Assembly (NCBI RefSeq): GCF_014196915.1
Contig: NZ_JACIEP010000005.1
Span: 248,001 to 312,000 of the forward strand
Origin: Dysgonomonas hofstadii
GTDB taxonomy: Bacteria > Bacteroidota > Bacteroidia > Bacteroidales > Dysgonomonadaceae
Direction of reading: 5' to 3'
Length of the DNA: 64,000 nucleotides
Positions 13,619 through 53,248 of the stretch are shown piece after piece. Below the pieces are notes generated by a model. That model saw only the letters and a list, made by a program, of their open reading frames with translations. It ran no database searches and was not told the origin of the DNA. The position numbers were made by a program, and so were the translations under genes. The stretch's first letter is position 1; the number at the start of each line of letters is the position of its first letter.

Positions 13619-14145
13619 ATGGCAATCAGTAGTTGAATTATTATGATTGTAAAAAATAATCGTTCTATTTTCTACTGCGCACAATCGAAGATTGCTTACC
13701 ATCCTTTTTTCCTAAGCAAAAAAAGGATGCAAAAATGCTTTGGTGGCTCATCCTGCGTGCGACCCGTTACAGGCTCACGGGCTAAATGGAAAGATTGTCC
13801 TGCGGACGCTTTCCATTTCACGCCCCTCTCACCTGACGGGTGCCCCTCTCTACGGACGAATGCCACCGGGCATCCGCCGGACAAGGCAGGGTAACCCCTG
13901 TCGTCGCATTGCGATTCGGGCATCATGTCCGCAGCAGGGGTACCCACCCTGCGAAAGCGGCGTGAAACCAAATTCTGTCTGAGCCGCAGGCGAGTTTATT
14001 TGGTTTAGCCGCTGAGCAGATGGTGGGTCTGTGAGGACTGCAGCCTTGATTTTTTGTAACTTTTGTATCAAGACAAAAGTTGAGAAAACAAGCCGGCAGG
14101 CGCGTTAGTGAAATTGAACTATTAAATATAACTACTGATTGGCAT
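13619..14145 (+). mobile_element. 527-bp inverted-repeat element, copy A (MITE-like or structured noncoding element)
   Basis: The element is bounded by ATGGCAATCAGTAG (13619-13632) and CTACTGATTGGCAT (14132-14145), inverted repeats with one mismatch. The core is much richer in GC than the flanks. About 105 bases from 13741 match copy B near 53 kb almost exactly, and a second conserved block lies at about 13961-14012. The core contains strong nested stems: AAATGGAAA (13784-13792) pairs with TTTCCATTT (13810-13818) around a GTCC-TGC-GGAC hairpin, and CCCGT/ACGGG lies at 13763-13781. Reading frames are open on both strands but overlap one another and are not conserved between copies in length. 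No target-site duplication is obvious. Confidence 0.75.
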
Positions 14146-14482
14146 AAATTATAAGTTATGAATATAAGGCTCAAAAGAACATTGATTATACTTAGCATCT
14201 TTGCGAGAAAACGTGTCAGGCGTGTCAGGTTTTGCTCAAAAGGCTAATGGCTATAAGCTAACAGCTAAAGGCTAAAAAACGATCTTTGAGATAATGATAT
14301 ATTGATAGAATAATAAGAAAAATGGTGTCAATATGAAAGAAATGAGTGTTGTGAAAATTGAAAAATATGTAAAGTTTGTAAAGTTTTAACATTCGGAACT
14401 TGCAATTTGCTATTTTCGATTTGTTATAGAAGTAGAGCCAATAGCCAATGGCGAATGTTGCGCGTTGTTGATATTTTTTTAA

Positions 14483-14496
14483 CTACTGATTGGCAT
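14483..14496 (+). repeat. solitary terminal repeat of the inverted-repeat element
   Basis: CTACTGATTGGCAT here is identical to the right end of copies A and B. The bases before it (GCGCGTTGTTGATA) loosely resemble the sub-terminal GCGCGTTAGTGAAA of copy A, so it may be the remains of a third copy. The stretch 14146-14482 otherwise shows only short repeats such as a tandem GTGTCAGG and GCTAA-rich runs. Confidence 0.6.
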
Positions 14497-40868: not shown

Positions 40869-40909
40869 CTTGCCCGCGCAGACTTCCAGTCTGTGTGTTG
40901 CGTAGCAAG
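40869..40909 (+). repeat. REP palindrome 1 (upstream of the RAYT gene)
   Basis: A 41-base imperfect palindrome with outer arms CTTGC/GCAAG and the inner stem CAGACT (40879-40884), TCC, AGTCTG (40888-40893), with a flanking G·U-type pair. Its inverted relative stands after the RAYT gene. The upstream bases 40821-40868 are a short spacer after nadA. Confidence 0.85.
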
Positions 40910-40923
40910 AAATAACATTATAT

Positions 40924-41454
40924 ATGAGTAGAAGATACAAATTTCACAATCCTGATGGCCTTTACTTTGTCAGTTTTGCTGTTAAAGAATGGATTGATGT
41001 TTTTACTCGTAATGAATATAAAAATATTATAGTTAATAGTTTGAGCTTTTGCCAAAAACATAAGGGCTTAGAGTTGTTTGCATGGTGCATAATGACTAAT
41101 CATGTTCATCTAATTGTTAGGGCAATGGAAGGACATTTGCTACAAAATATATTGAGAGATTTTAAGGGTTTTACTTCCAGAGAGATATTAAAGGCAATAA
41201 GGAATAATCCACAAGAAAGCCGCAAAGAGTGGTTGCTAGAAAAATTTAAAGATATAGATGGTAATTGCTTTTGGGCGACAGGTAATCATCCGATAGAACT
41301 ATGGAACAACGAGGTTATTCATCAAAAACTGGATTATCTGCATAATAATCCGGTTGAAGAAAGTTTCGTTTTTCGGGCAGAAGATTATGTATATAGTAGT
41401 GCGGTTGATTATTCAGGAGAGAAAGGGTTGATAAATGTAATTGTTATTGAATAG
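40924..41454 (+). CDS. REP-associated tyrosine transposase (RAYT, Y1/IS200-like family)
   Basis: Cuts and joins single-stranded DNA at REP sequences in known relatives; this family is stationary or acts in trans on REPs. The 176-residue protein has the HUH motif WCIMTNHVHLIV (H60 and H62), and the catalytic tyrosine is probably Y138 in KLDYLHNNPV, the typical RAYT C-terminal motif. The gene starts 15 bases after REP 1 and REP 2 begins 3 bases after its stop. It lies between nadA and nadB, away from the origin of the operon. No full IS (no TnpB) is present. Confidence 0.93.
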   Translation: MSRRYKFHNPDGLYFVSFAVKEWIDVFTRNEYKNIIVNSLSFCQKHKGLELFAWCIMTNHVHLIVRAMEGHLLQNILRDFKGFTSREILKAIRNNPQESRKEWLLEKFKDIDGNCFWATGNHPIELWNNEVIHQKLDYLHNNPVEESFVFRAEDYVYSSAVDYSGEKGLINVIVIE

Positions 41455-41456
41455 AT

Positions 41457-41497
41457 TTTGCTGCGCAACACACAGACTGGAAGTCTGCGCGAGCAAG
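41457..41497 (-). repeat. REP palindrome 2 (after the RAYT gene, inverted)
   Basis: This is the inverted form of REP 1: on the minus strand it starts CTTGCTCGCGCAGACT and differs from REP 1 at only a few bases in the loop-side arms. REP 1 and REP 2 together bracket the RAYT gene. Confidence 0.85.
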
Positions 41498-41529
41498 GGA
41501 TACCTTACATTATGTAAAAATAAATTATT

Positions 41530-52706: not shown

Positions 52707-53248
52707 ATGCGAATCAGCAGTTAGATTTAAATGTTCAATTTTACTAACGCACCCTTCGGGGTTGTTTTTCATTTTGACTCGCCTTCGCTTCGTCGATCGT
52801 TGATTGGCATTGCCCAAAACGAAACAAAAGGCTAGTGCTTTGTTCCCCGCCGACCTGTCAACGGCTTGCCGGCTAAACCAAATAAACTCGCCTTCGGCTC
52901 AGACAATATTTGGTTTCACGCCGTCTTCACCGGACAGGTGCCCGTCGTAGGAACCTATGCACGGAAAGCTGGCGCACGATAAAGAATTACCCTGCCTTGT
53001 CGTGGCTTTGCCCGGTGGCATTAAGCCGTAGTGCGGGGCATCCGTCAGGTGAGAGGGGCGTGAAATGGGAAGCGTCCGCAGGACAATCTTTCCATTTAGC
53101 CCGTGAGCCTGTAACGGGTCGCACGAAGGATGAGCCACCAAAGTGTTTTTGGTTCCTTTTGGGGCTTTGGGCAAAAGGAACACAAGCAATCTTCGATTGC
53201 GCGTAGTAGAAAAGAAACGAACGATTAAATCCATCTACTGATTGGCAT
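52707..53248 (-). mobile_element. 542-bp inverted-repeat element, copy B
   Basis: The element runs from ATGCGAATCAGCAG (52707-52720) to CTACTGATTGGCAT (53235-53248), the same terminal inverted repeats as copy A, with two mismatches in the left end. Its core matches copy A in reverse orientation: the roughly 105-base block at about 53036-53142 is nearly identical, and the GGTTTCACGCC region at about 52873-52923 matches the other block. At 52773-52797 it carries the 25-base core of the 46-bp repeat. Ends and middle differ in length between copies. No gene is credible in it. Confidence 0.75.

Follow-up and report, generated by a model that had tools for sequence, protein, structure and literature searches.

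About 40 copies of a non-coding mobile element are present in the genome of Dysgonomonas hofstadii. The element is probably a MITE, and its cargo consists of two copies of a mobile structured module that appears not to have been described. It has the features of a MITE, namely terminal inverted repeats (TIRs), a 5-bp target duplication, a multicopy state, short length and no coding capacity. Two copies, A and B, lie in the window, the stretch of 64,000 nucleotides that was analysed (positions 248,001 to 312,000 of contig NZ_JACIEP010000005.1), and both were located where a previous reading of the letters alone, the original prediction, had placed them (Table 1).

With copy A as query, BLAST finds 87 matching pieces (E ≤ 0.01) in the genome that was searched (5.04 Mb, 44 contigs), the best match other than itself having an E-value of 2.2e-189. 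A covariance model of the core, a long irregular hairpin termed P4, yields 83 matches (1 partial). The core, which the original prediction proposed to search for in the full genome, is therefore not confined to one or two copies; there are many, and their ends are conserved. The P4 matches form 35 convergent pairs and 13 singles, with 0 divergent and 0 tandem arrangements, and the gap within the convergent pairs is 92-95 nt in 28 of the 35. Parts of the module are missing or substituted in some copies. The nested stem and the near-identical core in opposite orientation, both of which had been predicted, are present in copies A and B. The downstream flank of copy A (window 14146-14260, aaattataagttatgaatataaggctcaaaagaacattgattatacttagc) recurs beside a copy at C5:351.7 kb (L037), which points to further intergenic repeats around the elements.

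The ends of the element display a 16-bp terminal inverted repeat with the consensus ATGCSAATCAGTAGTT. Copy A has ATGGCAATCAGTAG on the left and copy B has ATGCGAATCAGCAG, with CTACTGATTGGCAT on the right in both; these repeats are imperfect and carry 0-2 mismatches to the consensus. The original prediction had given 14-bp TIRs: the ends themselves stand, the repeat is longer at 16 bp and is not perfect, and the solitary right end placed at 14483-14496 is an exact match. A TIR pair was found in 25 of 30 loci when up to 4 mismatches per 14-bp end were allowed. Mapping of the target sites, also proposed at the outset, revealed 5-bp duplications flanking the element. Among 40 TIR pairs at loci of this genome (at most 5 mismatches summed over the two ends; a few long pairings are probably spurious), the flanks are identical over 5 bp in 13, whereas 2000 shuffles gave 1.56 on average and never more than 7; 0 of the 40 are identical over 6 bp. 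The flanks are A/T-rich, and those of copy A (aaaat/aaatt) and copy B (aaatc/taatc) each agree at 4 of 5 positions. The same TIR and duplications are found in the congeneric genomes G003, G015 and G018 and in G029 of genus g6, examples from relatives being taata/taata and gatat/gatat. The MITE interpretation, one of several that had been put forward, is thus supported by many copies, sharp TIR ends and 5-bp duplications. We know of no family whose repeat matches this TIR.

Shorter and different elements share these ends. Minimal elements of 65 bp (L039, 1501-1565) and 79 bp (L094, 2491-2569) consist of little beyond two TIRs. A second MITE of ∼245 bp in G018 (L208-L211, L217) displays the same TIRs with a different hairpin-rich core, and a 5-bp duplication is present in 4 of these 5 loci.

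Table 1. Positions of the element copies and their parts in the window (position 1 is the first letter of the window)
Feature	Position	Strand	Basis and details
Copy A, whole element, 527 bp	13619..14145		Ends; 5-bp duplication 4/5
Left TIR, copy A	13619..13634	+	End comparison
Right TIR, copy A, exact CTACTGATTGGCAT	14130..14145	-	End comparison
Pseudoknot, half-unit 1, copy A	13700..13743	+	Stem CATCCTTTTTT/AAAAAAGGATG; loop CCTAAGCA pairs 7/8 with TGCTTTGG after linker CAAAAA
P4 irregular hairpin, half-unit 1 (GACCC...GGGTGCC), core of the original prediction	13761..13844	+	P4 model, C5:261761-261844
P4 irregular hairpin, half-unit 2, facing half-unit 1	13939..14029	-	P4 model, C5:261939-262029
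Pseudoknot, half-unit 2, copy A	14045..14081	-	Stem AACTTTTGT/ACAAAAGTT; loop CTTGAT pairs with ATCAAG after ACAAAAA
Solitary right end, outside copy A	14481..14496	+	End search
Copy B, whole element, 542 bp	52707..53248		Ends; flanks 4/5
Left TIR, copy B	52707..52722	+	End comparison
Right TIR, copy B	53233..53248	-	End comparison
P4 irregular hairpin, left half-unit, copy B	52852..52942	+	P4 model, C5:300852-300942
P4, right half-unit, copy B, near-identical to 13761-13844	53037..53120	-	P4 model, C5:301037-301120
Pseudoknot, right half-unit, copy B	53138..53181	-	GTTCCTTTTG/CAAAAGGAAC with CCAAAG/CTTTGG

Compared with itself in reverse complement, copy A matches over positions 155-399 (E 4e-8), and the element therefore consists of two homologous half-units that face each other. 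From the TIR inward, each displays an A/T-rich stretch, a small hairpin, a stem-loop with a C/T-rich 5′ arm (S1), an A-rich linker, a strand that pairs with the S1 loop (S2), and P4, which starts with GACCC and ends with GGGTRCC. The nested stems of the core had been recognized in the original prediction; the inverted duplication and the pseudoknot outside the core are additions to it. No clear S1 was identified in copy B's left half-unit. The linker carries an additional hairpin in 6 of 20 right-type halves, and behind it the S2 strand is retained; at L016, L026, L093, L096, L098 and L101 the insert is a hairpin module of the form AATACAC...GTGTATT.

The stems of P4 covary in a shuffle-tested alignment; the original prediction had proposed to look for such covariation. 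The alignment (A1) comprises 23 of 53 sequences, hand-picked for diversity; its anchors were required by the search pattern, so that the invariant columns are biased, whereas the variable stems were not required. Pairing is found in 94.4% of 570 cells compared with 78.7% after shuffling, and in 36-52% when the partner strand is slid. Changes on both sides occur in 16 of 25 pairs (10.7 shuffled, 1 of 500 as high) and in 93 cells (28.5 shuffled, 0 of 500), and the covariation score is 0.439 against 0.162 (0 of 500). The count of further pair types in P4, 29 against 29.6 in shuffles, is not above chance.

For the pseudoknot, 46 sequences with loops of 8 bases were collected by requiring S1, so that the 98.4% pairing of S1 arises by construction; two-sided changes are found in 5 of its 11 pairs. 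S2 was not required in the collection and is 73.4% paired, with a weak signal of 1 in 8 pairs changed on both sides. S1 and S2 together display no excess over shuffles, either in two-sided pairs (6 vs 5.2) or in further types (14 vs 12.6). The two strands of S2 do change together among types (CTTGAT/ATCAAG, CTTGAC/GTCAAG, CCAAAGC/GCTTTGG), and further pairings are found across phyla (TCGCC/GGCGA, CACC/GGTG). Changes in the linker go along with those in the purine arm of S1 (mirror match 6.51, compared with 5.38 when linkers are swapped; 0 of 2000, n = 35), and the linker thus appears to follow the S1 stem as a third strand would; the direct match, 6.31, is barely separable from the mirror match, so that the triplex geometry is not proven.

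The structured module is more widely found than the MITE, and elsewhere it is present as single units, as tandem units or as inverted pairs whose ends differ from those of the MITE. The P4 model matches 70 of 101 genomes of the family, representing 11 of 15 genera, and 6 of 395 in a phylum-wide sample, and BLAST with copy A matches 17 of 61 relatives, the genome of D. hofstadii being included in each count. In genera g10 and g11 the unit is single (e.g. L128, L129, L131, L135, L137, L138, L141-L143), and where the TIR and the pseudoknot would stand, these loci by eye have a closing stem that varies in sequence. Rows of two or three units on the same strand are found at L140, L152 and L202.

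An apical motif, AACTCGCYN(2-5)GCTCARACA, extends the comparison beyond the family. It has 103 matches in 17 of the 395 phylum genomes, 39 of them in D. hofstadii, whereas the reversed pattern has 1. In named genomes at least 118 stretches were found, in Bacteroidota, Proteobacteria, Bacillota and others, and 80 loci were taken among the matches listed. By a rough estimate, chance alone would give some 480 matches in the collection as a whole, so the sequence context of the motif matters. A complementary stem of at least 6 is found just outside the motif in 55 of the 86 matches whose flanks were long enough (76 loci, among the matches listed), where 200 flank swaps give a mean of 1.2 and a maximum of 5. 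S1 with an A-rich linker lies upstream in 27 of 83 matches listed and at 7 of 365 control positions; with S2 added, the figures are 21 of 83 and 3 of 365. The P4 model reaches only 8 of the 80 listed loci (E < 0.01), and homology across phyla therefore rests on the motif, the pseudoknot and the layout.

Variovorax sp. OV700 carries 7 copies of ∼590 bp, each formed by two inverted half-units with S1, the linker, GCGACCC and the apical motif (1 of the 7 lacks the right S1). Their ends are quite different, with no evident 5-bp duplication. A Variovorax copy matched 13 plasmid records and no phage record; copy A matched no plasmid. In viral contigs the apical motif is found in at least 120 stretches, and 21 of 85 of the matches listed have a stem of at least 6 (control mean 0.6). 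Thirteen viral contigs (L369, L370, L387, L389, L394, L399, L410, L413, L420, L427, L428, L429 and L440) continue the motif as CTGGCGC and by eye have no flanking stem; L399 consists of tandem repeats of ∼3.1 kb. One of the initial proposals was a structured RNA gene that moves. Covariation and the wide, patchy distribution uphold a mobile structured module, and its RNA nature is putative.

The two strands of the module are not equivalent. Around the motif, G.T and A.C were scored alike in 77 helices; read on the AACTCGC strand, these contain 37 G.T and 82 A.C mismatches (p 4.5e-5 if cells are independent); 33 helices have more A.C and 16 have more G.T. The complementary strand therefore keeps more standard or wobble pairs, and in the MITE this is the outward strand, which leads from the centre towards the TIR. 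The family P4 alignment (66 rows, near-duplicates removed) has 14 G.U and 33 A.C on the inward strand, and it was built with an inward-sense model that, if anything, favours G.U. The outward strand folds better in all 3 P4 regions tested, of 4 in the window (outward/inward -46.4/-41.5, -48.6/-35.7 and -47.5/-39.8 kcal/mol). The second of these values belongs to copy B, where the reported change of one pair to G.T on one strand and A.C on the other is real, the outward strand being the + strand. Mismatch counts and folding alike thus bear out the suggestion that folding favours one sense. We infer that it is the outward strand that folds and that selection keeps the folding.

Whether the module acts as DNA or RNA is a closer question, in which single-stranded DNA is slightly favoured. 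Apical loops on the outward strand are GNA in 43 of 63 and GNNA in 10 of 63, and 7 of these 10 are not GNRA. The loops d(GNA) and d(GNNA) are very stable and are DNA-type loops. Wobble rarity was considered as proof of DNA and was dropped. The outward strand has 82 G.U per 1770 Watson-Crick cells, and terminator-like hairpins have 9 per 308, 4 per 136 and 19 per 304, a comparison that is rough as these stems were collected by other rules; with rates so similar, rarity cannot tell DNA from RNA.

The units show no consistent orientation relative to neighbouring genes, the upstream gene being on the same strand in 29, on the opposite strand in 23 and absent in 11 (n = 63). For 18 family singles, both neighbours are on the strand of the unit in 6, both on the other strand in 6, and mixed or with one missing in 6. 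The missing orientation bias led to the rejection of a cis-regulatory element and leaves the promoter module, another of the original proposals, without support. A single protein-coding gene was likewise rejected on the lengths of the open reading frames and the Pfam result. Copy A has no frame of 100 aa or more and copy B has one of 111 aa, for which no Pfam match lies above the cut-off (best DUF3804, E 0.085), in agreement with the statement that the core holds no credible gene.

No autonomous copy with ATGCSAATCAGTAGTT ends was seen when TIR pairs 0.8-5 kb apart were screened by eye in D. hofstadii, G003 and G029 (complete at up to 2 mismatches) and, among the matches listed, in G018 and G019. 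The pairs at G018:C25 (2.4 kb between the ends) and G003:5032853-5035274 by eye enclose open reading frames of host genes and no transposase. The genome encodes two Y1 proteins, one of them within the window. A REP-associated tyrosine transposase (RAYT) is found at 40924-41454 (+) (NCBIfam NF047646, E 5.6e-26), and its flanks at 40870-40910 and 41460-41500 display an inverted palindrome, cgcagacttccagtctgtgtgttgcg and its complement. By eye this palindrome is unrelated to the module, and a REP of the resident RAYT was rejected.

The 16-bp inverted repeats and 5-bp duplications point to mobilization by a DDE-type transposase. Acting in trans, such an enzyme would recognize the ATGCSAATCAGTAGTT ends and would insert the element into A/T-rich sites. 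The cargo would be two convergent copies of the module of roughly 230 bases each, predicted to comprise a small hairpin, a pseudoknot in which an A-rich third strand seems to add stability, and the long irregular P4 hairpin, whose internal loops are conserved and whose apical loop is small. The folded module might serve, for example, as a recognition site during mobilization or as a protected transcript.

A MITE with two module copies as cargo is the probable reading, and others differ in what they make of the module. That it is a transcribed structured RNA of the outward sense, with the MITE spreading a mobile sRNA or UTR element, is a serious possibility, although short of a probable one; the same can be said of a U-rich linker forming a major-groove triple helix with the A-tract of S1. 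The outward strand has more G.U than A.C and folds better, its G.U rate resembles that of terminator-like hairpins in the rough comparison above, and pyrimidine-type intrastrand triplexes occur in RNA (PMC4666352, in excerpt). Against RNA stand the lack of a fixed orientation to genes, the DNA-type apical loops, and a GU:AC ratio of 82:37, below the 32:9 pooled from terminator-like hairpins. Somewhat more tentatively, the module might belong to a class of mobile structured elements in several phyla, with a GNA-apex hairpin and a triplex-stabilized pseudoknot, that acts on the level of single-stranded DNA and is here the cargo of a DDE-type MITE. It would then fold from one strand and be used as single-stranded DNA by a putative mobilizing enzyme. 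Such an element would occur singly, in tandem or in inverted pairs, and would have been captured by the MITE in this family.

It is unlikely that the covarying stems are a by-product, that is, quasi-palindromes corrected by template switching or gene conversion with no function of the fold. The stems vary yet stay complementary, wobble is rare and modules are exchanged among copies, all consistent with such correction, but the apical motif recurs in distant bacteria with hardly any reversed matches, the pseudoknot pairing is not a simple palindrome, and a strand bias is not expected from it. Rather remote is the proposal that the units are gene-cassette recombination sites comparable to integron attC, with the MITE as a derived pair. 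It is suggested by genome G362, where a run of same-orientation units lies between genes, 7 of 12 units are within 11 nt after a stop codon (4 at 7 nt), and a gene of 449 aa is present twice with 99% identity; but 5 of these 12 units lack such a stop. Over all units the proposal is unsupported: among 35 S1 units from 86 loci, a stop within 60 nt is found 10 times on the 5′ side and 10 times on the other side, and in D. hofstadii the ends are TIRs with 5-bp duplications. The array in G362 (L488-L489, C2 303-326 kb) comprises 8 single units of the same orientation over ∼22.6 kb. Hardly any credence can be given to a decayed protein-coding insertion sequence with the core as a remnant gene; frames are open in places, including the 111-aa frame of copy B, but that frame has no Pfam match above the cut-off, indels are not multiples of three and changes are paired across stems.

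Should the fold prove functional, an unnamed structured element with a shared architecture would be present in many bacterial genomes, in some of them in dozens of copies, and would pose a testable question: what recognizes the module, as DNA or as RNA.

At gathering score, Rfam models find only tRNA and rRNA in the window and 19 motif loci; at a lax E-value, all matches of 5 copies and one Variovorax copy score far below gathering. No description of the module was found in the open-access literature. Integron attC sites are long imperfect hairpins folded from one strand with conserved unpaired bases. The module likewise has a long imperfect one-strand hairpin, but the Dysgonomonas element differs in having TIRs and duplications. 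REP, BIME and REPIN sequences are also folded repeats, often in inverted pairs, thought to be mobilized in trans by RAYT (Y1) proteins; REPs are 20-40 bp with GTAG or CGTC tags, unlike this element of ∼530 bp with its TIRs and 5-bp duplications, which does not qualify as REP (PMC3733652, in excerpt).

The nearest published sequence found is the BoxC/PIT (TM-ECO) triplex repeat. According to an excerpt of PMC4666352, these repeats form intrastrand triplexes, occur in many bacterial genomes, have no assigned function and follow the consensus CCCTCNCCC N3-6 GGGNGAGGG N3 GGGNGAGGG. The module similarly has a pyrimidine arm, a loop, a purine arm and a second purine stretch, but it differs from the repeat as described there in being A/T-rich and combined with a pseudoknot pairing and a long hairpin. 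The BoxC consensus was found in 2 of 493 loci, representing one place in one Variovorax genome and outside the module; at L349 the sequence lies at 2131-2163, ∼50 nt outside one element copy. MITEs are likewise short and non-coding, with TIRs, target duplications, many copies and no transposase of their own. The element described here differs from them in its cargo, a convergent pair of covarying structured modules that is found independently elsewhere, so that this MITE carries structured cargo with a life of its own.
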